A stretch of 64,000 nt of DNA from Deltaproteobacteria bacterium (GTDB lineage: Bacteria > Desulfobacterota > Desulfomonilia > UBA1062). The notes beneath the pieces were generated by a model. That model was not told the DNA's origin, made no database searches, and saw only the letters and a program-made list of their open reading frames with translations. Shown piece by piece: positions 8,046 to 27,528 of this stretch; position 1 is the stretch's first letter, and every line of letters starts with the position of its first letter. The DNA lies in NCBI GenBank assembly GCA_017992605.1, contig JAGOOG010000002.1:124001-188000 (forward strand), in the 5' to 3' direction. Position numbers and translations under genes: made by a program.

Positions 8046-9107
8046 TCATGTTCCCTTCTTCTCGCTGCACATCGTCTCGAAGGTATCGAAGACCGTTTCC
8101 GGCGGGGTATAGATCTTTTCTTCCGGCTTCTTCACCAGGGTCAGGGCACCGGTGGGGCATTTCGTCACGCACAGGCCGCACCCGATGCAGCGCTCTGCCC
8201 TGAACATGATCCTGCCATCCTTGAACCTGAGCGCGCCCACGGGACAGCGTCCGGCACAGACGCCGCAATCGGTGCACAGGGACTCATGCAGCGCGCAGAC
8301 ATAGTTGCTCTTTACCTCACGGGCAGGGGCGGGGAAGAGCTTGAGCGAGATGAGCATGCCGCAGCAGCACGAGCAGCAGGCACACATGGCCTCCACCTCC
8401 CGGGAGTTCAGGATGTGGATGACCAGCCCCTCCTCCTCGTTGCGTTTCAGCATGGCCAGGGCCTCGTCCATGCTTATGTAGCGTGCCAGACCATTCTCCA
8501 CATAGTAGTCGGCAAAGGAGTCGAACTGGAGGCAGGTCTCCAGGGGGTGCGTGCAGGTCTTGCCGTACATGCGCACCGCCTTGCGGCAGAAGCACTCGGC
8601 CACGGCGATCCTCTTCTTGGTCCTGATGATGGCCTCTGCATCGTCGTACGGGGCGATGGGCCCGTCCGGAACGATACCGGTGCTGATGGGGATGGACCTG
8701 AGGTGAGGGGTTTTCGAGCCATGGAAGGTGGCGCCAAGCCCCGACAGGTAGTATTCGGAGATGTCCTTCAGGAGCTCGGAGTTCAGGTTGTTCAGCTGGA
8801 ACTCGTAGATGCCCACGATGAAGGGTATGGGGAAATAGCGGGGCCCATCGCCTTCTTTCAGCCTGAAGACGAGCCCCCTGCGCGCCATGTCTTCCAGGCG
8901 GACCGCCATGGATCCGGGTTCGGCCTGAACACGGGCCGCCACTTCCGGGACGGTCCGCGGCTTCAGTTCCATGGCGAGGAACAGGGCGGCGTCCTCCTCG
9001 GTGAAGAGCTGCCTGAGGATCCTGATCTCCACCCCGCCTTCGGTGGCAGGATACCCGGTGGCCATCTCGTCGAGACGTGCACGCAGCTGTTCGTAGATAT
9101 CCGCCAT
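8046..9107 (-). CDS. Winged-helix/cysteine-rich/2x[4Fe-4S] ferredoxin fusion
   Basis: A 353-aa protein that I cannot name. Residues 25-85 look like a winged-helix fold (ILRQLFTEEDAALFLAMEL, then TVPEVAARV, then MAVRLEDMARRGLVFR). A cysteine-rich middle follows: C172, C174, C185, C192 and the cluster MCACCSCCCG at 241-250. The C-terminus is a classical two-cluster ferredoxin, C278/C281/C284/C288 and C307/C310/C313/C317. The ATG at 9107 follows AGGGGGGCGG. It stands alone between csp and the divergent amidase. It might be an electron carrier with a substrate-binding head or a redox-sensing regulator; the sequence does not decide. Confidence 0.82.
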   Translation of the reverse strand: MADIYEQLRARLDEMATGYPATEGGVEIRILRQLFTEEDAALFLAMELKPRTVPEVAARVQAEPGSMAVRLEDMARRGLVFRLKEGDGPRYFPIPFIVGIYEFQLNNLNSELLKDISEYYLSGLGATFHGSKTPHLRSIPISTGIVPDGPIAPYDDAEAIIRTKKRIAVAECFCRKAVRMYGKTCTHPLETCLQFDSFADYYVENGLARYISMDEALAMLKRNEEEGLVIHILNSREVEAMCACCSCCCGMLISLKLFPAPAREVKSNYVCALHESLCTDCGVCAGRCPVGALRFKDGRIMFRAERCIGCGLCVTKCPTGALTLVKKPEEKIYTPPETVFDTFETMCSEKKGT

Positions 9108-9220
9108 GGACCGCCCCCCTGCACTATGGTGAGCAGCATTGTACCCGATACCCGTGGACTTTACCATGAGAGGTTCGACGTGGAGATGAGCACGGGCATC
9201 ACTGCCGTGCGATCATCATC

Positions 9221-15839: not shown

Positions 15840-16463
15840 TCAGGACGCAACGACCCCTAGAAGCCTGAGACCATCGTAGAAGAGCACACATGCCAGTACC
15901 CCCAGGACGAAGCCAAGGAAACGCATGGTATACAGGTACGCCCTTCCCCTGAGAATGGATTTCGATCTGCCGACAGCCACGGCCAGCAACACCTTCGACC
16001 CCACGAGAAACGTGTAAAAGCTGAGAAGAAACGCAAGGAGAGCCCATACGTGCAGGCCCAACGCCTTTGTCATGAGGGGAGCGCCCACGCTGAACCAGAA
16101 CAGGTACGGATGAGGGTTCAGCGCATTTGCCAGCACCCCTTTGGTCAATGGTCTGGACTCTGCTGCTTCGAGCTCCGGCTCGAGTGCCCTGGTGCGCATG
16201 CTTCTCCAGGCCATGACCGAGATGAAGGCGCCGCCCGCAAGAGAGACGAGCCCCAGTATGCCGTGGAAGCCGGTCAGCTTGGACAGAACAAAAAGCGTGA
16301 GAACGATGATCGGCGCATCCGTGATCATCGGGGCAAGGGCAACTCTGATGCCGGCCTTGACACCGTGATGCAGCGTCTCTGTAAGGACCAGCGTCAGAAG
16401 CGGTCCCGGGGAAAACCCGGCGGAGAGTCCGAGCGCTGCTCCGGCGGTTATGAAGAACATCAT
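15840..16463 (-). CDS. LysE/RhtB-family exporter
   Basis: Integral membrane exporter of amino acids or similar metabolites, 207 aa with about six hydrophobic helices. The family signature is in the first helix, GLSAGFSPGPLLTLVL, and the NPHPYLFWFSVG segment is typical. I chose the ATG at 16463 (MMFFITAG), preceded by GAGAGG, because it starts at the first helix like other members; a TTG at 16490 would overlap the upstream gene by 23 nt. It follows the Fe-S oxidoreductase by 4 nt, so it belongs to that operon and may export a product of the hydroxyacid module. Confidence 0.88.
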   Translation of the reverse strand: MMFFITAGAALGLSAGFSPGPLLTLVLTETLHHGVKAGIRVALAPMITDAPIIVLTLFVLSKLTGFHGILGLVSLAGGAFISVMAWRSMRTRALEPELEAAESRPLTKGVLANALNPHPYLFWFSVGAPLMTKALGLHVWALLAFLLSFYTFLVGSKVLLAVAVGRSKSILRGRAYLYTMRFLGFVLGVLACVLFYDGLRLLGVVAS

Positions 16464-16467
16464 CCTC

Positions 16468-17643
16468 TCAAGGGCGTGGGCCAGACGCAACGGCCTCGGC
16501 CACGATGTCCGACAGCTCCCTGACCCGAATCCGCTCCTGGGCGCCCTCGTCCTTCACCGCATCGGCGAGCATCCGGTAGCACTGGGGACAGGCCACGGCG
16601 AGGGTGTCGGCACCGGTGGCGAGGGCTTCCCGGATACGGGCTCGTGCCGCCAGATCAGGTCCTGTGCCGAGCATGTCCGTAAAGAAGTTGCCGCCTCCTC
16701 CCCCGCAGCACAGGGCATTCTGCATGGCCCGGTCCATCTCCACGAGCCTGAGCCCCCTGACGGACCTGAGGATGTTCCGCGGTGCGGCATATTCGCCGTT
16801 CCAGCGGCCCAGGTAGCAGGGGTCATGGTATGTCACGGTCGTCCCGCAGTCGATCGCCGGGGCGAGCTTTCCCGCGAAGAGCTGCAGGATCTGGGTGTAG
16901 TGGTACACCCCGAAGGCCGCGCCATGGCCGGGATACCAGTTCCTCATGGCATTGAAGGCATGCGGGGACAGGGTGATGACCTTCTTCACGCCGAGCCTGT
17001 TCATGAGCGCGATGTTCTGCCCTGCCAGCAAGGCCGCCAGACCCTTCTCTCCCAGGGCATGCACGTCGTTGCCGTCGGAGACCTCCTCGGCCCCGAGAAT
17101 GCCGAACGACACCCCCGTACGCATGAGGAGCCCCGCCACGGACCGGGCCATCCGCTGTCCCAGTTCGTCGAAGGCGCCTTCGTCGCCCACGTAGAGGAGG
17201 TATTCCTGGTCCGTATACCGGGGGATGTCGAGCTCTTCGGCCCACAGCCCGCGATCCCGGGAGGGCATCCGGTACGGGTTGCCGCTGGTGCTGACGGCCT
17301 TGAAGTAATCCCTGACCGTCGGGGGTATGATCCCCTGGTCGACCATCTCCGCCCGTGCCTCGATGAACACGTCGACGAGCTTGTCCTTGATGTGGGGCAG
17401 GGCACACGCCTCCACGCAGTTCCTGCAGGTCACGCAGGAAAAGAGGATCTGTCCGAACCGCTCGCTGGTGGGGATATCGCCCTCCTGCCAGGCGCGGATC
17501 AGCCACATCCTGCCGCCCGAGGAGAACGACTCGAAGCGGTATTTCAGGTAGGCGGGGCAGTTGAAATCCGTGTAGTTCAGGGGGAACTTGCACCAGCCGC
17601 ACCGGAAGCACCGGTGGAGGATGTCGCGGTATGCACTGTCCAT
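16468..17643 (-). CDS. CCG-domain Fe-S oxidoreductase (HdrD/GlcF-like)
   Basis: A 391-aa soluble electron carrier. Two [4Fe-4S] motifs open the protein, C12/C15/C18/C29 and C70/C73/C76/C80. Two cysteine-rich CCG segments follow; one is visible as HDPCYLGR plus ALCCGGGGG. Such proteins receive electrons from a flavoprotein partner, as GlcF or LldF do, or move them to heterodisulfide-type cofactors. The ATG at 17643 directly abuts the stop of the FAD-dependent oxidase, with GGGAGGTGG before it. It is the third gene of an Fe-S/FAD/Fe-S set; the flavoprotein is its likely partner. Confidence 0.9.
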   Translation of the reverse strand: MDSAYRDILHRCFRCGWCKFPLNYTDFNCPAYLKYRFESFSSGGRMWLIRAWQEGDIPTSERFGQILFSCVTCRNCVEACALPHIKDKLVDVFIEARAEMVDQGIIPPTVRDYFKAVSTSGNPYRMPSRDRGLWAEELDIPRYTDQEYLLYVGDEGAFDELGQRMARSVAGLLMRTGVSFGILGAEEVSDGNDVHALGEKGLAALLAGQNIALMNRLGVKKVITLSPHAFNAMRNWYPGHGAAFGVYHYTQILQLFAGKLAPAIDCGTTVTYHDPCYLGRWNGEYAAPRNILRSVRGLRLVEMDRAMQNALCCGGGGGNFFTDMLGTGPDLAARARIREALATGADTLAVACPQCYRMLADAVKDEGAQERIRVRELSDIVAEAVASGPRP

Positions 17644-19032
17644 CTAGGCCACCTCCCAGTTCCCGGGGTTCATGATCCCTGCCGGGTCGAGCACCCCCCT
17701 GACCCGCTTCATGAGCTCTTTCGTGGCCGGGTCCATCCGATCCATGATGAGCCGCTGTCCCTGCACCTCGGTCTTCCAGGGTATCCCTCCCAGGGCGAGG
17801 GCGGTCCCGTTGGTGTCATCCAGGGCATGTTTCACCCGCTCCACCTCGTCACGGTCCACACGGTTGAAGGGGTAGGCGAAGAAGAACATGGCCGCATGGC
17901 CCCTGCCGATGATCCGGGCACCGAGCGAGTAGGTGATGCCGTGCCTGGCCGTGATGTCCATGCCGGCCCTGCAGGCGTCCGGGATCTTCTCGACGGGAAT
18001 GATGGCGCCCACGTACTCGAACCCACCTCCCTTGCGTACGTCCGCGAACTTGCTCAATGCCTTCTGGGGAGCCTCGAGAAACCCCGACTTCATGTTCGGG
18101 GGCACGGGCATGAACCCCGACCGCCTGGTCTCATAGAGGTCCTTCATCACGGAGCGGAGCGCGTTGCGCTTGAAGGTCAGCTCCTGTTCGGTGTTTGCCG
18201 TGTAATTGATCACGGTCATCTGAAACCCCCGAAGGTAGTCGGGCTTGGGCGCCATGGCATAGTTGATGTCCTCGGCCATGGACGTTCCTATCACCCTGTT
18301 GATCACCACCGGGGCGAGATCGATGTCCTCGGTCATGTAGACTAGGACATCGTGGAACCTCGGCCGCGGGAAGAGCTTGATGCCCACCTTGGTGATGATG
18401 CCGGTGGTGCCGTTCCAGCCGAGGAACAGGCCCACGAGGTCCGGCAGGGGCGCCCTGGAAAACCAGGCGGGCACCGTGGAGCACGAGCCGAGCTTCACCA
18501 CCTCGCCGGTACCGAGCACCGCCTCGAGCCCGGTGACCATCTCGGAGTGGAACCCCCCTTCGCTCTGGGAGAGGTGTCCGGAGCCGTGTATGGCGATGTT
18601 CCCTGCAATGGTTGCCGCTGGCGGGGCATCGGGCAGGGAATGCTTGAGCCCGGGGTGATGCTTCCTGAGATAGGCGTCGAGCATGCCCTGGGAGGTTCCT
18701 GCCTCCACCACCGCGTAGTGGCTCTGGTCGTTGACCTCGAGGATGCGGTTCATGCGCTTCATGTCGAGCACGATGCCGCCCCTGAGCGGCACGGACAGCC
18801 CGGAGAGCACCAGCCCGCCTCCCATGGGAACGACCGGTATCTTCTCGGCGCGTGCGAGCTCGACGACGGAGGCCACCTCCGCGGTTCCCCCCGGCATCAC
18901 GACCCAGTCCGGCTCGTGCGGATCCTGAACTCCCTGGTCCCGCGAGTAGATGAAGAGCTCTTCCGCCGCGTCAGAGACGTACGCCTCGCCCACGATGGCC
19001 TTGAGCCTTTCGACGATAGCCTGACGTTCCAT
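17644..19032 (-). CDS. FAD-linked oxidase (GlcD/D-lactate dehydrogenase type)
   Basis: Flavoprotein dehydrogenase of the FAD_binding_4/FAD-oxidase_C superfamily, 462 aa, probably oxidising a 2-hydroxyacid. The FAD-binding region shows VVMPGGTAEVASVVELA and VPMGGGLVLSG (about 45-80), and the C-terminal cap contains GRGHAAMFFFAYPF. It sits between two Fe-S proteins, 9 nt after one and touching the other. This matches the arrangement of glycolate or lactate oxidase complexes, in which FAD passes electrons to CCG Fe-S subunits. The ATG at 19032 follows GGAGGGATC. The substrate is unknown; the acyl-CoA genes upstream suggest a fatty-acid-derived hydroxyacid. Confidence 0.9.
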   Translation of the reverse strand: MERQAIVERLKAIVGEAYVSDAAEELFIYSRDQGVQDPHEPDWVVMPGGTAEVASVVELARAEKIPVVPMGGGLVLSGLSVPLRGGIVLDMKRMNRILEVNDQSHYAVVEAGTSQGMLDAYLRKHHPGLKHSLPDAPPAATIAGNIAIHGSGHLSQSEGGFHSEMVTGLEAVLGTGEVVKLGSCSTVPAWFSRAPLPDLVGLFLGWNGTTGIITKVGIKLFPRPRFHDVLVYMTEDIDLAPVVINRVIGTSMAEDINYAMAPKPDYLRGFQMTVINYTANTEQELTFKRNALRSVMKDLYETRRSGFMPVPPNMKSGFLEAPQKALSKFADVRKGGGFEYVGAIIPVEKIPDACRAGMDITARHGITYSLGARIIGRGHAAMFFFAYPFNRVDRDEVERVKHALDDTNGTALALGGIPWKTEVQGQRLIMDRMDPATKELMKRVRGVLDPAGIMNPGNWEVA

Positions 19033-19041
19033 GATCCCTCC

Positions 19042-20061
19042 TCACTCACCGAGTGCCATGAGGCACAGGTCGGACATCATGACCGGGAAGATGCCTGCCT
19101 TGGCGACAGGCTCGGCAAGGGTCCAGAAGCAGAACGGGCAGTTGAACACGCAGTACTGTGCGCCGGAGGCCTTCATGTCGGCAACGTTCTTGGCCCTGAT
19201 ATCGTCCACGAGGTCGAACCGTTGGGCAGCCTCGGGCACGCCCCCGCAGCACAGGGCGTTGCCGTACTCGTACGTCCTCTTCGGCCGCTCGGCACCGATG
19301 AGCCCGAAGATGCCGTCGACGATGCGATCGGTCTCCGGGCAGAGCCTGTTCGAACACGGCCGCTGGTAGGCGACCTTGACGTTGAGCGGTTTGATGCGGT
19401 CCTCGAGCTCGACGAGCCTGTGATACAGGTAGTCGAAGAGGTGGACGGGCCTGAAGGGCACCTCGATGCCGAAGGCCTGTGCCCACGAGGTGTAGGTGCC
19501 ATAACACTCGTCGTGGTAGCAGATGACATCCCGTATGCCCGAGGGCTCCACGGCGCAGCGCATGATGTTGTCGATCATGAGCGGGAGCCGCTCCTTGATG
19601 GTGGAACTCCGCGCGAAGTGGAGGAACATGAGGTTGCAGAACACGTCGCTTCCCCCGAAGGTGGTGGCCCCCTCGAAGAGGGTCCCGCGGATACCGCCCT
19701 TCATCACCTCGAAGAAACACATGTTGATGAGCGGGCTCTTCAAGTCCATCTCCTGGATCTTTCCCCGGGGGCCCATCATCACCACCTGCGACTTCTCGAT
19801 GGGGATGGGCACGGGGTGGATGCCGAGCCGCTCCTGCACCTCCACGAGGCGGTAGAAGGGGTGGTTCCCATTGGGGCAGTACTCCTCGCAGGCATAGCAG
19901 GTGATGCAGTCCGTCAGGATGGATGACATCTCACCCCTGGCAACCCGGTCATGTTCCCGCTTGGCCCGGGCCAGGTCCAGATCGATGTACTGGCACTTCA
20001 TGACGCAGTCCACGGTCTCGCATGCCAGGCAGGTCTCCGGGTCGAATCGCAGTGCAGACAT
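19042..20061 (-). CDS. Fe-S protein with ferredoxin head and CCG domain
   Basis: A 339-aa electron-transfer protein. Two [4Fe-4S] motifs are at C11/C14/C19/C23 and C52/C55/C58/C62; the first is unusual in its spacing. The C-terminal half has CCG-type cysteines in YQRPCSNRLC, GNALCCGGVPEA and NCPFCFW. The ATG at 20061 follows AAGGGGG; a longer reading upstream is unsupported. It is the first gene of the Fe-S/FAD/Fe-S set, 9 nt before the flavoprotein. I infer a three-subunit complex; its final acceptor (quinone, ETF or a soluble carrier) cannot be read, as no membrane anchor is present. Confidence 0.88.
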   Translation of the reverse strand: MSALRFDPETCLACETVDCVMKCQYIDLDLARAKREHDRVARGEMSSILTDCITCYACEEYCPNGNHPFYRLVEVQERLGIHPVPIPIEKSQVVMMGPRGKIQEMDLKSPLINMCFFEVMKGGIRGTLFEGATTFGGSDVFCNLMFLHFARSSTIKERLPLMIDNIMRCAVEPSGIRDVICYHDECYGTYTSWAQAFGIEVPFRPVHLFDYLYHRLVELEDRIKPLNVKVAYQRPCSNRLCPETDRIVDGIFGLIGAERPKRTYEYGNALCCGGVPEAAQRFDLVDDIRAKNVADMKASGAQYCVFNCPFCFWTLAEPVAKAGIFPVMMSDLCLMALGE

Positions 20062-20133
20062 GAAAACCCCCTTTCGTACAAAAAGTTGCCCCTGGCGACA
20101 CATTGTCCGCCCGGCAGAGCTCATTCACACACG

Positions 20134-20157: not shown

Positions 20158-21081
20158 TCAGCCGTGTTCTTCCTTCGTTTCCCCGGGGAGAAACCCGGGC
20201 TTTTGGTACGCGGGTCCGGGGTAGGTATAGAATCCCTTGCCCGTCTTGTAGCCCAGCTCGCCTCTGTCCACGTACTGCTTGATGAAGTCCGCGTTCTTCT
20301 GGGCCTGGGGATCGCCCACCTTCTTGGCCCAGTAGTCCGTGATGGTCCACACCGTGGACAGGCCAACCTGGTCCATGATGCCGAAGGGGCCCATGGGCAT
20401 GTACGTAACCCCCATCCAGGACCGGTCGATGTCCTCCACCGTGGTGACACCCCGTGACGCCAGCGTGAGGGCGGAAAAGAACAGGCTGGAGAGCATGGCG
20501 TTGAAGACATAGCCGTTGTTCTCCCGGTGGAGCATGATGACGATGCACCCGATGCTCACGGCAAAGTCATGTACGAGCTGGGTCACTGCAGGATCGGTCC
20601 CGGGGTGGGGCATGACGTCCACCACGGTGGATGCCCTGAGGTCGTGGAAGTGGAGGGCGCAGAGCTTTTCGGGCCTCCCCGTGGCCTCGGCGAACATGGA
20701 CGGCACGAGCATGGAGGTGTTGGTGGTGAAGACGGTTCGCCCCGGGCAGAGCTTGTGGAACTGGGCGAAGACCTTTGCCTTGATGTCCGGATCCTCGGGC
20801 ACCGACTCGCTGATGATGTCCGCGTCGCGCGCCGCTTCGCCGGGGTTATCCGTGGAGGTGATGCGGGCCATGGTCTGTTCAAGCTGCTCCTTCGTGAGCC
20901 TGCCTGTGGAGGCATACCAGTTCGCCAGCTTTCCGACGCGTTTGACGGCCTTGTCCAGGATGTCCCGGTTCAGGTCGTAGTAGATCGTCCGATACCCGTT
21001 CATGGCGCACTGGAGGCCGATCTGCTGGCCCATGGTCCCTGCTCCGAGGATGAGTACTGTCCTGATGTCGCTGCGCTGCAT
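20158..21081 (-). CDS. 3-Hydroxyacyl-CoA dehydrogenase, stand-alone
   Basis: NAD-dependent dehydrogenase of 307 aa without a hydratase domain. The Rossmann motif GAGTMGQQIG is at 13-22, the NTSMLVPS segment at 121-128, and the catalytic His is H144 in ALHFHDL. The partner Glu of classical enzymes (HFFNP then LVE) is not evident; VVDVMPH places D155 close to that position, with a one-residue shorter gap. This may mark a subfamily acting on another hydroxy compound. The ATG at 21081 follows AAAGGACAAGACC. It lies 27 nt after the SDR and probably completes oxidation of the product made by the kinase/ACAD pair. Confidence 0.9.
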   Translation of the reverse strand: MQRSDIRTVLILGAGTMGQQIGLQCAMNGYRTIYYDLNRDILDKAVKRVGKLANWYASTGRLTKEQLEQTMARITSTDNPGEAARDADIISESVPEDPDIKAKVFAQFHKLCPGRTVFTTNTSMLVPSMFAEATGRPEKLCALHFHDLRASTVVDVMPHPGTDPAVTQLVHDFAVSIGCIVIMLHRENNGYVFNAMLSSLFFSALTLASRGVTTVEDIDRSWMGVTYMPMGPFGIMDQVGLSTVWTITDYWAKKVGDPQAQKNADFIKQYVDRGELGYKTGKGFYTYPGPAYQKPGFLPGETKEEHG

Positions 21082-21108: not shown

Positions 21109-21876
21109 TTAGGCGAGGGCACCGCCATCCACCACGAAGCTCGCGCCCGTGGTGAAACTTGCCGCGTCCGAGACCAGGTACAGCACCACCCCCGCTATCT
21201 CCCGAGGTACCGCGTTACGGTTCATGGGGATCATCTTGACAGCATAGTCTCGGATGGCCTCGTTGTCCATGATGGCCTTGGAGAAGTGCGTGTCCACCAG
21301 GCCCGGCAGCAGGGCGTTCACCCGTATGTTCCTGGCGGCGAGTTCCTTGGCGAAGGACTTGGTCAGAGAGATGAGCGCAGCCTTGGTGATCGAGTAGATC
21401 CCCTGGTACGGCGCCGGCTTGACGCCGTTGATGGAAGAGACGTTCACGATGGCGCCACCCCCTGATTCGGTCATGAGCCCCACGGCATGCTTGATGAGGA
21501 AGAACGGGCCCTTGAGGTTCACGTCGAAGGTCTTGTCCCATACTCCCTCGTCGGCCCCGATCATCTCCCCGAAATACGGATTGGTTGCGGCGTTGTTGAT
21601 GAGGATGTGGAGCTTTGCATACCTCTCCCTGATCTGGCCGATGAGGCCCTCGATCTGCTTCAGGTCGCCCATGTGGCAGGCGATTACATCGGCCTTGCCG
21701 CCCCGGGCGGCGATCTTCCCTGCAACGCCGTTCAGGGCATCGGCCTTGCGGCTCACCAGGATACAGTGGGCACCATAGTCGGCCAGGGTGATGGCGATGG
21801 CCTCCCCGATGCCGCGGCTCGCCCCGGTTACGAGAGCAATCTTTCCGTCGAGACTGAAGTTCACTTTTTCCATCAT
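21109..21876 (-). CDS. Short-chain dehydrogenase/reductase
   Basis: NAD(P)-dependent SDR of 255 aa. The cofactor motif TGASRGIG is at 17-24, NNAA at 94-97, and the catalytic residues are S147 or S148, Y161 and K165 (YSITK). The ATG at 21876 follows AGGAGAGT. It lies 43 nt after the APH-like kinase. In levulinate (lva) and ACAD10/11-type pathways a reductase or dehydrogenase of this class interconverts the keto and hydroxy group that is then phosphorylated; the same role is likely here but not shown. Confidence 0.93.
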   Translation of the reverse strand: MMEKVNFSLDGKIALVTGASRGIGEAIAITLADYGAHCILVSRKADALNGVAGKIAARGGKADVIACHMGDLKQIEGLIGQIRERYAKLHILINNAATNPYFGEMIGADEGVWDKTFDVNLKGPFFLIKHAVGLMTESGGGAIVNVSSINGVKPAPYQGIYSITKAALISLTKSFAKELAARNIRVNALLPGLVDTHFSKAIMDNEAIRDYAVKMIPMNRNAVPREIAGVVLYLVSDAASFTTGASFVVDGGALA

Positions 21877-21919
21877 ACTCTCCTGTAGGCTCCTTATCAT
21901 CCGAACACTGTTTGCTTGG

Positions 21920-22987
21920 TCACAGGGAGCTCTCCCTGATTATCCCCTGGGCGATCTGCCCGGCGATATGCACCCCGAAGATGATGGCGCTGAATCGCTC
22001 GTCCTTGGTCTGGCCGTGGTAGTACCGGTAGTAGATCTGCTGAATGATAACCCCGATGCGAAATATCCCGAAACAGAGGTAGAAATCGAAGTTGTCGATG
22101 GTGACGCCGGACTTCTCCGCATATCGCTGGACCATTTCCACCCGTGTCAGGGCCCCGGGCAGGTTGGTGGGAAGCATGCCCATCATCTGGGCCTCTTGCG
22201 GGTCGTCGGCCTGCATCCAGTAGCCGAGCGAGCTTCCAAGATCCATGAGGGGATCGCCGATGGTGGCCATCTCCCAATCCAGTACGCCGATGATCTTGAG
22301 GGGATTGTCCGGGTCGAGCACGACATTGTCGAACTTGTAGTCGTTGTGGATGAGCGCGGGCCTGGGGTGATCCGGGGGCATTTTGTCCCTGAGCCAGGCC
22401 ATGATGTTCTCGAGTTCAGGGGCATCAGGGGTACGGGCGGCGCGGTAACGGTCGGACCATCCCTCCACCTGTCTCTTCACATACCCCTCGGGCTTCCCGA
22501 GCCCTTCGAGACCGATCTTCCGGTAGTCCACGGAATGGAGTTCGTAGTGCACGTCCAGCAGGTTCTCGCACAGCTTCCGCATCTCGTCCGGGCCGAGCTC
22601 CATGCCCTTGGGGAAACGCTTTCGGGGGATGATGCCCTTGATGCGCTCCATCACGTAGAACGGGCAGCCCATGATGGACTCGTCCTCGGTGTATGCGAGC
22701 GGCTTCGGGCAGTAGTGAAAGACCGGGTTCACGGCACTCATGACCCGGTACTCCCTGCCCATGTCATGGGCGCTCTTCGCCTTCCTCCCGAAAGGCGGTC
22801 TCCTCAGGACGAGTTCCGTGTCTCCCACCCTGATGAGGTAGGTGAGGTTCGAAAACCCGCTGGGGAACTGCTCCACCACGAGATCCCCGCTCAGACCGGG
22901 GATGGTGTCCTTGAGAAACACCTCCACGCCCTTCAAATCAAGCTCCTCGCCTTGTCTCACATTTGTCGGTCGATCGATCACGTCCAT
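21920..22987 (-). CDS. APH-family kinase, ACAD10/11- or LvaA-like
   Basis: Phosphotransferase of the aminoglycoside-phosphotransferase fold, 355 aa. The catalytic loop is LIHNDYKFDNVVLDP (H-x-D-x4-N) and the metal-binding Asp is in GVLDWEMATIGDP. Homologous kinase domains fused to or encoded beside ACAD10/11-type dehydrogenases phosphorylate the hydroxyl of 4-hydroxyacyl-CoA, as LvaA does in levulinate catabolism. The same pairing is seen here, with the ACAD two genes upstream. The ATG at 22987 follows AGGAGAGGGA. An antibiotic-resistance role is unlikely given the context. Confidence 0.88.
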   Translation of the reverse strand: MDVIDRPTNVRQGEELDLKGVEVFLKDTIPGLSGDLVVEQFPSGFSNLTYLIRVGDTELVLRRPPFGRKAKSAHDMGREYRVMSAVNPVFHYCPKPLAYTEDESIMGCPFYVMERIKGIIPRKRFPKGMELGPDEMRKLCENLLDVHYELHSVDYRKIGLEGLGKPEGYVKRQVEGWSDRYRAARTPDAPELENIMAWLRDKMPPDHPRPALIHNDYKFDNVVLDPDNPLKIIGVLDWEMATIGDPLMDLGSSLGYWMQADDPQEAQMMGMLPTNLPGALTRVEMVQRYAEKSGVTIDNFDFYLCFGIFRIGVIIQQIYYRYYHGQTKDERFSAIIFGVHIAGQIAQGIIRESSL

Positions 22988-23004
22988 TCCCTCTCCTCCT
23001 TGCC

Positions 23005-23703
23005 TCATTGGTGTGGGGAAAGCAGGTATGATTCGACTAACTCCACGAGAAAGTCGGCATACTTCTCCACCGAGGTCTTCCTTCTGGCGTACTTCCATCG
23101 CTTGAGGTACCAGTCCTGGAGCATGGCCTTGAGAACCGCTCCCAGGAGGTCCGTGTCGACCTCCCTGAAGACCCCTGTCCTGTTTCCTTCCCTGAGGATG
23201 TCGACAAAGAGCTTCTCGGTGAAAAGCTCAGACTCGATGGCCTTGCGGTGCTCTTCCTTTCCCAGGTTCTTGGTCTCCATGTAGGAGAAGTAGAACCACT
23301 CTCTCAGGATCTCGCTGAGGAAGAGGTGGGCCTGGATAGCCCGCTTGAGCTTGACCCGCGGATCATCGATGCCCTTGAGCTGATCCACGAGCACCTGCAT
23401 GACGACCGCGCTCTGCCCCTGGATCATGTGCAGCAGCTCTTCCTTGCTCGTGAAGTAGGTGTACAGGGCACCCATGCTCAGGCCCGCCTTCCTGCTGAGG
23501 TCGCGGAGGCTCATGGCGGCGAAGCCCTTCTGGCTGCTCAAGGTCAGGGCTGCGTTCAGGATCTTCTCGAGGTTTCTGACCGCGACTCCTTCCTTCTTGA
23601 TTTTAATGCTGTCACGGTTTCCCTGAAAGAGGTCCCGGCTCAGGTCCTCCATGGAGAGGCTGACCAGGCCCTTGAAGGCCTCGAACTTCAGATCTTCCTT
23701 CAT
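23005..23703 (-). CDS. TetR/AcrR-family regulator
   Basis: Transcriptional repressor of 232 aa. The helix-turn-helix spans about residues 62-83 (MSLRDLSRKAGLSMGALYTYF); the C-terminal ligand domain is helical. About 40 residues precede the DNA-binding domain, longer than usual, and the ribosome binding site is weak (AGGACGG, 12 nt away), so the start is less certain than the frame. It lies inside the operon, 3 nt after the ACAD stop. An acyl-CoA ligand and autoregulation at the divergent control region near 25.7 kb are likely by analogy with other fatty-acid TetR proteins. Confidence 0.92.
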   Translation of the reverse strand: MKEDLKFEAFKGLVSLSMEDLSRDLFQGNRDSIKIKKEGVAVRNLEKILNAALTLSSQKGFAAMSLRDLSRKAGLSMGALYTYFTSKEELLHMIQGQSAVVMQVLVDQLKGIDDPRVKLKRAIQAHLFLSEILREWFYFSYMETKNLGKEEHRKAIESELFTEKLFVDILREGNRTGVFREVDTDLLGAVLKAMLQDWYLKRWKYARRKTSVEKYADFLVELVESYLLSPHQ

Positions 23704-23706
23704 ACG

Positions 23707-24915
23707 CTAGCGTACCGTCCTGCCTTCATAGTCCCTGAGTATCCTCCTGGCCACGGACATCTTGTGCACCTCGTCGGCCCCGTCATAGATCCGGGCCGCA
23801 CGCTCGTGCCGGTAGAAGTAGGCGATGATGGTGTCGTCGGTCATGCCCATGCCGCCATGCACCTGCAGTGCCTTGTCGATGACGTCCTGCATGACGTTCG
23901 CCACGAAGAATTTTATGAAGGATATGTCGTAGCGTGCTGCCTTGGCACCAAGGGTTTCGATCTTCCAAGCGGCGTTGAGCGTCATGAGCCGTGCCGCCTG
24001 AATGTTGGCCGCGCACTCGGCGATCCAGGCCTGGATGATCTGTTTGGTCGCAAGGGTCTTGCCGTCCGGCTGGATGATGCGTTTGGATGCACGGGAGCAC
24101 ATGAGGTCGAAGGCCCGGTTGCAGATCCCGATCCATCGCATGCAGTGGTGGATCCTGCCGGGTCCGAGGCGCTCCTGGGCGATGACGAAGCCGTGTCCCT
24201 CCGGGCCCAGCAGGTTCTTCTGCGGTACCCGGCAGGACTGGAACAGGACCTCGCCGTGCGAGGCGTAGTCGTCACCAGCATGGCCCATGACCGGGATGTT
24301 CCGGACCAGGTTGAACCCCTTGGTGTCGGTGGGGACAATGATCATGCTCGCCTGGAGGTAGGGCGGCGCCTCGGGGTTGGTGTTGGCCATGACGATGGAG
24401 AAGGCCGCGCCGTCCGCTGCGGTGGAATACCACTTCTGGCCGTTGATGACATAGTCGTCCCCGTCCTTCACCGCGGTGGTGTCCATCATCACCGGGTTGG
24501 AGCCGGGCATTTCCACCTCGGTCATGGAGAAGCAGCTCCGGATCTTGCCTTCGATGAGGGGCCTGAGGTACCTCTCCTTCTGTTCGAGCGAGCCATGGAG
24601 GTGGAGGATCTCGATGTTGCCTGCATCGGGCGCATGGCAGTTGAAGACGTAGTGCCCGATGGGGCACCTGCCCAGGGACTCGGAGACGAAGGCATGCTCC
24701 ACGAGGTTCAGGCCCATCCCCCCGTACTCCTTGGGGTGGTTCGGGGCCCAGAGCTCCATCTTCCTCACCATCTCGCGCTTCTGTTCGAGCACCGGCTTCA
24801 TCTCGCGGAAGGTCTTGTGGATGAACTCGGGTTCGAGCGGGATGAGCTCTTTCTCGACAAACTCGTCCATCATGCCGGTTATGGCCTTTATCTTGTCCGG
24901 AACTTCGAAATCCAT
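23707..24915 (-). CDS. ACAD10/11-like acyl-CoA dehydrogenase
   Basis: Acyl-CoA dehydrogenase-fold flavoprotein, 402 aa. GPGRIHHCMRWIG at 251-263 is characteristic of the ACAD10/11 and LvaC group. The position of the catalytic Glu of ordinary enzymes (YEGT) is Asp here, D378 in IYDGADEVH, also usual in that group. In the described pathway such proteins remove phosphate from a 4-phosphoacyl-CoA rather than simply desaturating it. The ATG at 24915 follows AAAGGAGCAG. It lies in one operon with an APH kinase, an SDR and a TetR protein, which supports the same chemistry. Confidence 0.92.
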   Translation of the reverse strand: MDFEVPDKIKAITGMMDEFVEKELIPLEPEFIHKTFREMKPVLEQKREMVRKMELWAPNHPKEYGGMGLNLVEHAFVSESLGRCPIGHYVFNCHAPDAGNIEILHLHGSLEQKERYLRPLIEGKIRSCFSMTEVEMPGSNPVMMDTTAVKDGDDYVINGQKWYSTAADGAAFSIVMANTNPEAPPYLQASMIIVPTDTKGFNLVRNIPVMGHAGDDYASHGEVLFQSCRVPQKNLLGPEGHGFVIAQERLGPGRIHHCMRWIGICNRAFDLMCSRASKRIIQPDGKTLATKQIIQAWIAECAANIQAARLMTLNAAWKIETLGAKAARYDISFIKFFVANVMQDVIDKALQVHGGMGMTDDTIIAYFYRHERAARIYDGADEVHKMSVARRILRDYEGRTVR

Positions 24916-24947
24916 GGTTCTGCTCCTTTCTCCTCTTGGGGAATCTA

Positions 24948-25658
24948 TCACCTATACGTGATGAGCGACGGGTCTCCTCCCAGCTCGAGGTGTGTGAAGG
25001 AGTTGAATCCCGCCATGGTGATCCGTTCATCATTATACATGTAGCGTGTCAGGGATGTGTTCACGATCTGCCAGTTCAGGCGCATGGCCTTCTCCCCCGG
25101 CAGCCCGAGCACGTTCGAAAGGGATGCGGCGATGGCGCCGCCGGAGGTGAAGACCGCGACGGTCCTGCCGCTGCCGTGTCTCTCCATTATGGCCGTCATG
25201 TCCCGGGCGACGCGTGCCTTGAGCCCTTCCCACGCCTCGATGCCGTCGGTATCGTACCTGCCTGTCACCCAGCGCAGCATGGCGGTCTCGAAGACCCTCT
25301 TGAACGATTTCTTGCTGGAGTACATCCGTGGCAGCTCGTCATGCAGGGAAGGGTCTTCATCTGCCATGGCCGGGAACATGGCCGTGACGATGGCGGTGGT
25401 GTCGTACTCGTCAAACCCGCTCACGCGTTCGAGGTCCGGCAGAGGCCTGCCGTGCTCCGCAAAGAAGGATCTGACCTCCTCCGCTGTGGCCGTCTGGCGG
25501 TCCATGGCCCCGGAATAGACCGCATCGGGCCGGAAGCCGGTATCGAAGAGATGGCGGGCCAGGATACGAGACTGGCGGACACCGAGTGTTGAGAGCTTGT
25601 CGTAGTTGTCGTGGCCGAAGGAGGCCTGCCCGTGGCGGATCAGATAGATCATGCTCAT
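24948..25658 (-). CDS. Histidine-phosphatase-family protein lacking the second His
   Basis: A 236-aa phosphoglycerate-mutase-like protein. The phosphorylated His is present as H9 in LIRHGQASFG, and the acid is in SGFDEYD. The second catalytic His of the motif THGG is Ser here: TSGG at 171-174. The protein may be inactive, altered in chemistry or a binding protein. First gene of the operon, 32 nt before the ACAD. The start is ATG 25658 or 25652; neither has a Shine-Dalgarno sequence, and a promoter lies directly upstream, so a leaderless mRNA is likely. Confidence 0.85.
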   Translation of the reverse strand: MSMIYLIRHGQASFGHDNYDKLSTLGVRQSRILARHLFDTGFRPDAVYSGAMDRQTATAEEVRSFFAEHGRPLPDLERVSGFDEYDTTAIVTAMFPAMADEDPSLHDELPRMYSSKKSFKRVFETAMLRWVTGRYDTDGIEAWEGLKARVARDMTAIMERHGSGRTVAVFTSGGAIAASLSNVLGLPGEKAMRLNWQIVNTSLTRYMYNDERITMAGFNSFTHLELGGDPSLITYR

Positions 25659-25665
25659 GGCGATG

Positions 25666-25694
25666 AGGATACCGGGAGAGGTGTCGCATGTCAA
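25666..25694 (-). promoter_or_regulatory. Promoter of the kinase/ACAD operon, probably leaderless
   Basis: On the minus strand: perfect -35 TTGACA (25689-25694), a 17-nt spacer and -10 TATCCT (25666-25671). Only 7 nt separate the -10 hexamer from the ATG at 25658, so transcription should begin at or beside the start codon. No Shine-Dalgarno sequence is present, which fits. Confidence 0.6.
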
Positions 25695-25703
25695 GCAAAA
25701 ATA

Positions 25704-25715
25704 GAGCGAACGCTC
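25704..25715. promoter_or_regulatory. Inverted repeat between divergent promoters, likely TetR operator
   Basis: GAGCG and CGCTC flank AA: perfect 5-bp arms in GAGCGAACGCTC. It lies 10 bp upstream of the -35 of the minus-strand operon and in front of etfB, between divergent genes. The TetR protein encoded at 23005-23703 is the obvious candidate to bind it. Confidence 0.5.
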
Positions 25716-25781
25716 GTTTTTTGTGCTTGCATTTTGTCGTGTCCTCCGATACCTTTCATGCACAAGAAAGGGGCACGTCCC

Positions 25782-26561
25782 GTGAAGATCCTCGCGTGCG
25801 TAAAACAGGTCCACGATTCCAGCGACACGCTTGAAATCAATGAACAGACCGGCTGGTTCTCCCCCAAGCCCCTGACGGTCTTCAGGATGAACCGCTTCGA
25901 TGAGTTCGCCCTGGAGGAGGCGCTCCTCATACGGGAGCGCATGCCCGAAAGCGTGGTTCACGCCCTCTCCATCGGGCCGGAGCGGGCAAGCACGACCGTG
26001 CGCAGGGCCCTCGAGATGGGCGCGGATCACGGGGTCCATATCCTGGTGAAGGGGGAAGGCTACATGAGTCCTTTTACCGCGGCTTCCGCCATCGCCTCCT
26101 ATGCCCGGACAGGGAGCTATGACCTCATCCTGACCGGGGTCATGTCCGAGGACAGCATGGCTGGAGTCACCGGCCAGCTCACGGCTGCCATACTTGATCT
26201 GCCGTGCGTAACCTCGGTCATCCGGACGGAACTCCATGGAGAGACTGCAGAGATCGTCGCGGACAGCGAGATCGAAAACGGCTACAGGGCTTCGTACCGC
26301 CTTAGTCTCCCGGCGGTACTCACCATCCAGTCAGGGATCAACTCCCCGCGCTACCCATCCCTGTCCAATGTCATGCGGGCGCGGTCACAGCAGCCGAAGA
26401 CCATCATGCCCGAAGACCTCGGCCTGCCGGCGCCCCGGGACTCGTGTTCCGGAATACGCATGCCCGACACGTCTTCTCAGGGGCTTTTCCTCGAGGGGAC
26501 CGCACGGGAAAAGGCGCAGATGCTCGTGGGCATACTGCACGAGAGATCCCTGCTGTCCTGA
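25782..26561 (+). CDS. etfB: Electron transfer flavoprotein beta subunit
   Basis: Beta subunit of ETF, 259 aa, binding AMP or a second FAD and contacting the dehydrogenase partner. The start VKILACVKQVHDSS matches the family (MKILVCVKQVPD), so I chose the GTG at 25782 after AAGAAAGGGG over the ATG eight codons upstream. The central part has LTGVMSEDSMAGVTGQL, where ETF-beta usually has a Gly-rich nucleotide loop. It lies 10 nt before etfA and is divergent from the ACAD operon, so it is probably the electron acceptor for that ACAD or for the FAD/Fe-S set. Confidence 0.92.
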   Translation: MKILACVKQVHDSSDTLEINEQTGWFSPKPLTVFRMNRFDEFALEEALLIRERMPESVVHALSIGPERASTTVRRALEMGADHGVHILVKGEGYMSPFTAASAIASYARTGSYDLILTGVMSEDSMAGVTGQLTAAILDLPCVTSVIRTELHGETAEIVADSEIENGYRASYRLSLPAVLTIQSGINSPRYPSLSNVMRARSQQPKTIMPEDLGLPAPRDSCSGIRMPDTSSQGLFLEGTAREKAQMLVGILHERSLLS

Positions 26562-26571
26562 GGCATATACC

Positions 26572-27528
26572 ATGTACAGCGCTCACATCGTCATAGCGGA
26601 GGTCAGGCGGGGGGTCATCACCCAGGAGAGCTATGAGGCCGTGTCGTTCGCCAGAGACTGTTCAGGGGGCCTTCTTCCTGCCGTTGTCCTGCTTGGCAAG
26701 GATGTTTCCCTCCAGGCGGAGGACCTTGCAGAGAAAACCGGCTGCACCGTCCACGTGATTCAGGGCGACCACCTGGGGAGCTTCAATGCCGAGGAGTCCT
26801 GCGCCGCCATTGCCGATCTCATCTCGGGCCTGCTGCCAGCACTGGTGTGCCTGCCCCATTCGTCCATGGGGTGGGACCTTGCCCCCCGGCTCGCGGTCAA
26901 GCTGCATGCTTCCTGTATCACTGCTGTCGAGACGGTGAAGGGAAAGGGATTCACCAGGTCCATGTGCGCGGGGCGCTTCATGGCCGATATCGTCCCGCTG
27001 ACCGAGAGCGTGGTGATCACCCTGTCCGCCGGCGCATATCCCCCATATTCACCGGGGGGCTCCGCAAAAGGACCCATCGAACGGGTCCGCGCTGCCGGGG
27101 CAACCGCGCGCTCCAGACTCCTGGGTGTCCGGGAGCCTGCCCATCGAGACAGCGCGCTCAGGGACGCCGAGGTGATCGTGTCGGCAGGGAGGGGCATCGG
27201 CAAGAAGGAGAACGTCGAGATCGTCAGGGAGCTTGCATCCCTTTTCCCGCGATCTGCCGTCGGGGCATCCCGGTCGGTATGCGACCTCGGGTGGCTCGAG
27301 TACGGCAGGCAGATCGGAACGACAGGTCAGACCGTGGCCCCGAAGCTCTACATCGCCTGCGGCATCTCCGGGGCCATCCAGCATGTGGCCGGGATGCGGG
27401 GGGCTCACACCATTGTGGCCATCAACACGGATCCCGACGCGGCGATCTTCCGGGTCGCCCACTACTGCATCGTGGAGGACATCACGACGTTCATCCCTGT
27501 TCTCATGGATGAGCTGAAAAGGGACTAG
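26572..27528 (+). CDS. etfA: Electron transfer flavoprotein alpha subunit
   Basis: Alpha subunit of ETF, 318 aa. The C-terminal FAD-binding domain is clear: VSAGRGIGKKENV, then VGASRSVCDLGW, QIGTTGQTVAPKLYIACGISGA and AINTDPDAAIFRVA, which bind the flavin and its pyrophosphate. The ATG at 26572 follows TGAGGCATATACC. Whether the pair is a simple carrier or a bifurcating ETF cannot be settled by eye. No ETF:quinone oxidoreductase is encoded nearby; the CCG-type Fe-S proteins at 16.5-20 kb are possible onward carriers. Confidence 0.93.
   Translation: MYSAHIVIAEVRRGVITQESYEAVSFARDCSGGLLPAVVLLGKDVSLQAEDLAEKTGCTVHVIQGDHLGSFNAEESCAAIADLISGLLPALVCLPHSSMGWDLAPRLAVKLHASCITAVETVKGKGFTRSMCAGRFMADIVPLTESVVITLSAGAYPPYSPGGSAKGPIERVRAAGATARSRLLGVREPAHRDSALRDAEVIVSAGRGIGKKENVEIVRELASLFPRSAVGASRSVCDLGWLEYGRQIGTTGQTVAPKLYIACGISGAIQHVAGMRGAHTIVAINTDPDAAIFRVAHYCIVEDITTFIPVLMDELKRD

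Follow-up and report, generated by a model that had tools for sequence, protein, structure and literature searches.

The DNA analyzed here is a 64,000-nucleotide stretch (hereafter the window) from a Deltaproteobacteria bacterium of the UBA1062 lineage (contig JAGOOG010000002.1, positions 124,001 to 188,000), in which three consecutive minus-strand genes, here called the trio, encode a GlcD-type flavoprotein between two different iron-sulfur (Fe-S) proteins with CCG domains. CCG_A (19042-20061) is followed after 9 bp by the FAD protein gene (17644-19032), and the latter, with 0 bp in between, by CCG_B (16468-17643). This composition, including the unusual ferredoxin head of one CCG protein, had been proposed in an initial annotation of the sequence and was borne out by the open reading frames and their Pfam domains. 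The span proposed for the three genes, 16468-20061, also proved exact, since the CCG_A open frame covers 19042-20124 and has its likely start at 20061. In CCG_A, Pfam recognized a CCG domain with one complete CCG (non-cubane type) site, while the Fer4_10 head scored below the cut-off. This head, C-x2-C-x4-C-x3-C, lies upstream of a normal 4Fe-4S motif (C-x2-C-x2-C-x3-C) and was kept in 72 of the 75 CCG_A frames examined, the three misses comprising a divergent paralogue and two frames truncated where a contig stops. CCG_B carries Fer4_8 and CCG domains and is HdrD-like, with two 4Fe-4S motifs and one complete CCG site. Its 8 motif cysteines and 5 CCG cysteines were invariant in all 70 aligned rows kept after 7 of 77 were dropped as short, whereas its other CCG domain is degenerate, with two positions occupied by cysteine in only 35 of the 70.

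The FAD protein was used as a query against about 85,000 species genomes, and the best 80 of 341 relatives were kept. According to contig labels, their hosts are Deltaproteobacteria/Desulfobacterota, Chloroflexota, Bacillota, Spirochaetota, Calditrichota, Poribacteria, Archaeoglobi, Bathyarchaeota, and Asgard archaea. Four loci were cut by contig ends (L040, L059, L097, and L106), and all three genes were found together in 72 of the 76 evaluable ones, 70 by script and two by inspection: in L049, CCG_B sits in an overlapping frame, and in L058, CCG_A and the FAD protein form a single 813-residue open frame. Only four Lokiarchaeota loci (L101, L105, L108, and L111) had the FAD protein and CCG_B without CCG_A. 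A second sample of 198 genomes of the phylum was searched with CCG_A, of which 30 matched at an E value of 1e-60 or better. In the 28 regions from this search, strong CCG_A matches had a FAD gene next to them, apart from those at the end of a contig (L157 and L159). The recurrence of the same order in both sets confirms that CCG_A, the FAD protein, and CCG_B are one conserved redox unit rather than a chance association. Furthermore, two open-frame fusions, that of L058 and an 855-residue frame joining the FAD protein to CCG_B in L151, suggest that the products form one complex. No published account of a CCG-FAD-CCG trio was found in searches of an open-licence library. The trio is real, widespread, and apparently uncharacterized, and probably makes up a flavin/Fe-S complex. 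Weaker CCG_A paralogues (35-42% identity), some of them beside acyl-CoA dehydrogenase genes, stood without a FAD gene in the CCG_A search (L164 to L172), and among the genes near them are those for acyl-CoA dehydrogenase, a glycyl radical enzyme, enoyl-CoA hydratase, and radical SAM and succinyl-CoA-ligase-like proteins.

What the central flavoprotein may do was approached through its domains and predicted fold. It carries FAD_binding_4 (E value of 8.5e-31) and FAD-oxidase_C domains in Pfam, as do GlcDEF, D-lactate dehydrogenase (LDHD), and D-2-hydroxyglutarate dehydrogenase, which also resemble the trio in predicted fold and in having a CCG Fe-S partner. Its AlphaFold2 model (46 sequences, mean pLDDT of 87.9) matched LDHD (Z 39.9, 2.8 Å, 439 aligned residues), the EtfAB-linked LctD (Z 37.0, 3.0 Å, 440 aligned), and eugenol oxidase (Z 36.2, 2.3 Å, 449 aligned). 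The predicted fold is thus that of the vanillyl-alcohol oxidase/p-cresol methylhydroxylase (VAO/PCMH) superfamily of flavin alcohol and hydroxyacid dehydrogenases, and as modeled it leaves the choice between hydroxyacid and phenol enzymes unsettled. An assignment as a 2-hydroxyacid enzyme from the fold alone was rejected because the vanillyl/eugenol enzymes are nearly as close as lactate dehydrogenase.

The catalytic residues separate the trio from its best-known relatives. In D-2-hydroxyacid dehydrogenases, the residues of the HxGDGNxH and EHGxG motifs are metal ligands and catalytic, a role that is supported by PDB titles naming an H405A variant of lactate dehydrogenase. The (G/A)HAGDGNxH and EHGxG motifs were present in 14 of 14 GlcD-type controls from related genomes and in none of the 80 trio FAD proteins; the controls were picked from distant matches after the EHG motif had been seen in most of them, and they show the form of the motifs in these genomes, not how often these are retained. 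Conversely, the C-terminal loop of all 80 trio proteins reads GGxxWK, which none of the 14 controls has, and its Trp-Lys pair was likewise kept in 46 of 46 sequences. Based on these residues, the active site of the FAD protein would be metal-free. The earlier suggestion of a 2-hydroxy-fatty-acid dehydrogenase, working like D-lactate or glycolate dehydrogenase and coupled to electron-transfer flavoprotein (ETF) or Fe-S carriers, agrees with the shared domains and fold, but the motif loss argues against it, as does a score of 110 bits with the NCBIfam GlcD model, far below the cut-off of 567.9. In its favor, three adjacent Desulfococcus genes that may correspond to the trio, Dmul_C24850-70, have been assigned to phenyllactate oxidation in a paper whose main text gives no description of them (PMC5109826). 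Together with the neighboring genes described below, these observations make the 2-hydroxyacid proposal unlikely in our judgment.

The same loop bears on a second candidate chemistry, the oxidation of phenolic or benzylic alcohols to aldehydes in the manner of the VAO/PCMH enzymes, with aldehyde:ferredoxin oxidoreductase (AOR) taking the aldehyde. HMMER aligns Trp419-Lys420 with the Tyr-Arg pair found in a chain of the p-cresol-methylhydroxylase type (second domain of u163640); in VAO, this pair anchors the substrate. The FAD protein thus shares with vanillyl-alcohol oxidase, eugenol oxidase, and p-cresol methylhydroxylase both the predicted fold and an aromatic-basic pair at the same loop, and its deviation from eugenol oxidase is lower than that from LDHD, although LDHD gives the higher Z score. 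AOR genes also occur at 10 of the 80 loci and directly adjoin the trio in L059, L086, and L088. However, the Tyr-Arg pair of the 4-phenol-oxidizing subfamily is itself absent in 80 of 80 trio proteins, where Trp-Lys replaces it, the trio has Fe-S partners unlike these oxidizers, and the neighbors in the window are acyl-CoA genes, leaving this chemistry very unlikely. A second type of relative without the metal motifs, here called PYK for its GGIPYK loop (L118, L119, L126, and L127), shows 30-33% identity, has its own CCG protein, and looks like another system; in L118 (5467-15462), the pair lies beside GntR, aldehyde dehydrogenase, MFS, UroD, and arginase-family genes.

A further comparison is offered by two 2026 papers on anaerobes that degrade benzene, which report a FAD-FeS-FAD complex of very high abundance and, in the parts available to us, compare it with GlcDEF and VAO/PCMH (PMC13101534 and PMC13416013). 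Like the trio, these "Magic" proteins (24-26 of Ca. Anaerobenzenivorax ORM2, and BzS1_12970/80/90; accessions WAC08368-70 in PMC13101534) occur in strict anaerobes next to genes of the beta-oxidation type and unite GlcD/VAO-like FAD proteins with an Fe-S protein that is Hdr-like. In the accessible text of one of the two papers, the Fe-S protein lacks cysteines in two of four motifs, which recalls the degenerate CCG domain of CCG_B. The layouts differ, with CCG-FAD-CCG in the trio and FAD-FeS-FAD in Magic; in GlcDEF as well, a second FAD subunit stands where the trio has its second CCG protein. Three relatives in the window's own family depart from the trio layout, as L115 and L116 combine trio-like FAD proteins in the order FAD-CCG_B-FAD and L117 has FAD-FAD-CCG_B. 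In genomes related to that of the window, two further clusters (L144, 4460-9118, and L145, 3-3558, minus strand) are FAD-FeS-FAD and Magic-like by domain layout only, a resemblance from which we infer their kinship with the published proteins; their FAD proteins lack the GGxxWK loop.

Among 49 CCG_B-like proteins, a quickly built tree separated the trio, two-FAD, PYK, and Magic-like proteins from nine GlcF rows, with a Shimodaira-Hasegawa-like approximate likelihood ratio test (SH-aLRT) support of 100% for a split at which, as the tool warns, long branches meet. The CCG_B side comprises the proteins whose FAD partner lacks the metal motifs, and it includes the Fe-S subunits of L144 and L145, look-alikes rather than published Magic sequences, in CCG_B's own clade, within which long branches make the order unsure. 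This grouping would fit a flavin radical or C-C bond-forming chemistry as proposed for the benzene Magic/BeDH heterotrimer, with oxo acids passing to adjacent LvaA/LvaC or HadBC modules, and a beta-oxidation/TetR neighborhood is also described for BzS1 in the available part of its account (PMC13416013). Nevertheless, Magic kinship was judged from domain layout and not from published Magic sequences, the trio consists of one FAD and two CCG proteins rather than two FAD and one Fe-S protein, the function of Magic is itself unproven, and L144 and L145 have loops unlike that of the trio; we give such chemistry only the slimmest chance. A broader conjecture, also a long shot, would have the trio and the Magic heterotrimer form one large unrecognized class in which metal-free flavoproteins of the GlcD fold pair with HdrD-like proteins, dedicated to unusual activations in anaerobes rather than to simple hydroxyacid oxidation. 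Its product would be a 4-oxo or 4-hydroxy acid entering the ACAD11-type module in the window, and a 2-hydroxy or 2-oxo acid entering a HadBC-type dehydratase in Desulfobacterales.

The genes around the trio in the window may point to a particular kind of acid. As initially annotated, the trio follows hydroxyacyl-CoA genes and precedes a LysE exporter, according to Pfam and NCBIfam. On the minus strand upstream of it lie a 3-hydroxyacyl-CoA dehydrogenase (3HCDH, 20158-21081, PRK08293 family) and an SDR oxidoreductase (21109-21900, PRK07035 family), both above the NCBIfam cut-offs, an APH-family kinase (21920-23098, with a probable true start near 22987), a TetR regulator (23005-23703, Pfam), an acyl-CoA dehydrogenase (ACAD, 23707-24951), and a branch 1 histidine phosphatase (24948-25664, 5' boundary approximate). 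On the plus strand, the divergent genes for EtfB (25611-26561, probable true start at about 25.78 kb) and EtfA (26572-27528, start placed within the frame 26236-27528) follow. Among solved structures, the ACAD best matched ACAD11 (2wbi, E value of 1.5e-85; 8v3u, 3.6e-83), and the APH protein matched an APH-type chain (9o56, 2.1e-100), 3dxp (7.4e-50), and the kinase half of ACAD11 (8v3v, 3.1e-49). Asp in place of Glu defines the ACAD11-type ACAD in the part of PMC12440821 available to us, and in the window ACAD, Asp likewise replaces the catalytic Glu (IYDG), as in nine of nine trio-linked ACADs of at least 74% identity. By these sequence matches, the ACAD and APH proteins are the split halves of an ACAD11/LvaC-LvaA module for 4-hydroxyacyl-CoA, which makes the operon one of the 4-hydroxy-acid kind; compared with ACAD10/ACAD11 and LvaA-LvaC, the halves are separate genes, in an anaerobe, next to a flavin/Fe-S trio and ETF. 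This nature of the operon had not been named in the initial annotation and, with the absence of the metal motifs, speaks against its specific 2-hydroxy-fatty-acid enzyme type.

The LysE-family gene (15840-16490, minus strand) overlaps or abuts the end of CCG_B but is not part of the conserved unit, since L085 is the sole further locus among the 80 with a LysE relative. Elsewhere in the window, a ferredoxin-tailed Fe-S protein is encoded at 8046-9167 on the minus strand, relatives of which share a stretch with a trio or a CCG_A paralogue in L053, L065, L111, L146, L155, and L164, and no match to RNA families was obtained in the window.

Across loci, the proposed link to acyl-CoA genes and the divergent etfBA held in part. 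The ACAD/TetR/APH block directly precedes the trio in one Calditrichota and one Desulfobacterales metagenome-assembled genome as well, and EtfBA lies beside several of the same neighbor blocks; ACADs of this type were found at 9 and APH at 10 of the 80 loci, so that co-occurrence with the module recurs but is not universal, and L036, from the window's own genus, has a trio without acyl-CoA genes, which argues against a tight link. Other loci bear different modules. HadC-HadB-HadI-like 2-hydroxyacyl-CoA dehydratase genes (plus activase) stand in front of the trio at nine of the 80 loci, all in Desulfobacterales (L060, L062, L063, L070, L074, L077, L081, L082, and L084), and a VorB-like 2-oxoacid:ferredoxin oxidoreductase subunit is encoded nearby at six of the 80, both of which favor 2-hydroxyacids. 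An AMP-forming ligase of one cluster was found at nine of the 80. An association with lactate permease or glycolate genes, named beforehand as the finding that would speak against the initial proposal, did not appear, since the permease (PF02652) was present in only 5 of 43 searched trio-bearing genomes (of those of the 80 loci) and no lactate or glycolate gene was found among the labeled neighbors. The same low permease count tells against D-lactate-type function, and with the missing motifs it led us to reject a lactate/glycolate utilization system. No common family emerged among the 77 same-strand neighbors scanned (of 243 unlabeled), each family occurring in at most 4 of the 77 among the 25 of 168 families listed.

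Another reading is that the trio has no organic substrate of its own. It could instead work in beta-oxidation as an ETF (or ferredoxin):Fe-S/quinone oxidoreductase, a hub for electron transfer in which the FAD subunit is a relay. CCG_B resembles the "iron-sulfur-binding reductase" 9ojn (1042 amino acids, E value of 6e-49), which we take to be EtfD-like, etfBA is divergent in the window, and the CCG_A paralogues of L165, L166, and L168 have acyl-CoA dehydrogenase genes as neighbors. Yet the FAD subunit has the complete VAO/PCMH fold and a loop with invariant residues, conservation extends to no membrane partner, and most trios have no etf genes nearby; we regard a pure relay as distinctly unlikely.

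The reading that we favor, at somewhat less than even confidence, is that the trio is a flavin dehydrogenase that acts on hydroxylated acids or alcohols without a metal and feeds Fe-S clusters and perhaps ETF. The three gene products would form one cytoplasmic enzyme complex in which the FAD protein, with no metal bound, dehydrogenates an organic acid or alcohol that bears a hydroxyl group, the likeliest being a hydroxycarboxylate that enters beta-oxidation. CCG_B and CCG_A would take up the electrons from the FAD protein in their 4Fe-4S and CCG-type clusters and pass them to ETF or to another Fe-S or quinone route. In the window, the likeliest substrate would be a 4-hydroxy (or related hydroxy or oxo) acid because the operon also contains the split ACAD11/LvaA-LvaC module. 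Neighbors that make or consume hydroxy or oxo compounds (ACAD11/LvaC, LvaA, HadBC, AOR, and VorB types) count in favor of this dehydrogenase, as do the intact trio at 72 of 76 loci, the two fusions, the predicted fold, EtfBA beside several neighbor blocks, and the match of CCG_B to 9ojn. Several points weigh against it, including the loss of the D-2-hydroxyacid motifs noted above. No neighbor is universal, and the flanks are unrelated at most loci; product and acceptor are unreadable from sequence. Moreover, in the portions of the papers available to us, the ACAD11/LvaA-LvaC pair converts 4-hydroxyacyl-CoA to 2-enoyl-CoA by phosphorylation and elimination with no electron acceptor (PMC11342911 and PMC12440821), and this pathway thus offers no evident step for the trio.

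The host genome (2.71 Mb, 98.5% complete) contains one trio. No PF01077 (sulfite reductase family) match was found in it, which makes sulfate reduction improbable; the host is more likely an anaerobe with beta-oxidation. It also contains ten HGD-D and five AFOR_N matches, and aromatic-type chemistry is possible. Taken together, these results indicate that the initial picture was right in outline and probably wrong in the enzyme type that it named. Since the catalytic and metal motifs are lost in every relative examined, labeling such proteins as glycolate or lactate oxidase subunits is probably misleading in Archaeoglobi, Asgard archaea, and many anaerobic bacteria. As a widespread cousin, the trio lends itself to studying the type of complex proposed in the two 2026 papers for anaerobic benzene activation, and its locus connects strict anaerobes with a 4-hydroxy-acid pathway that is known in mammals and Pseudomonas.

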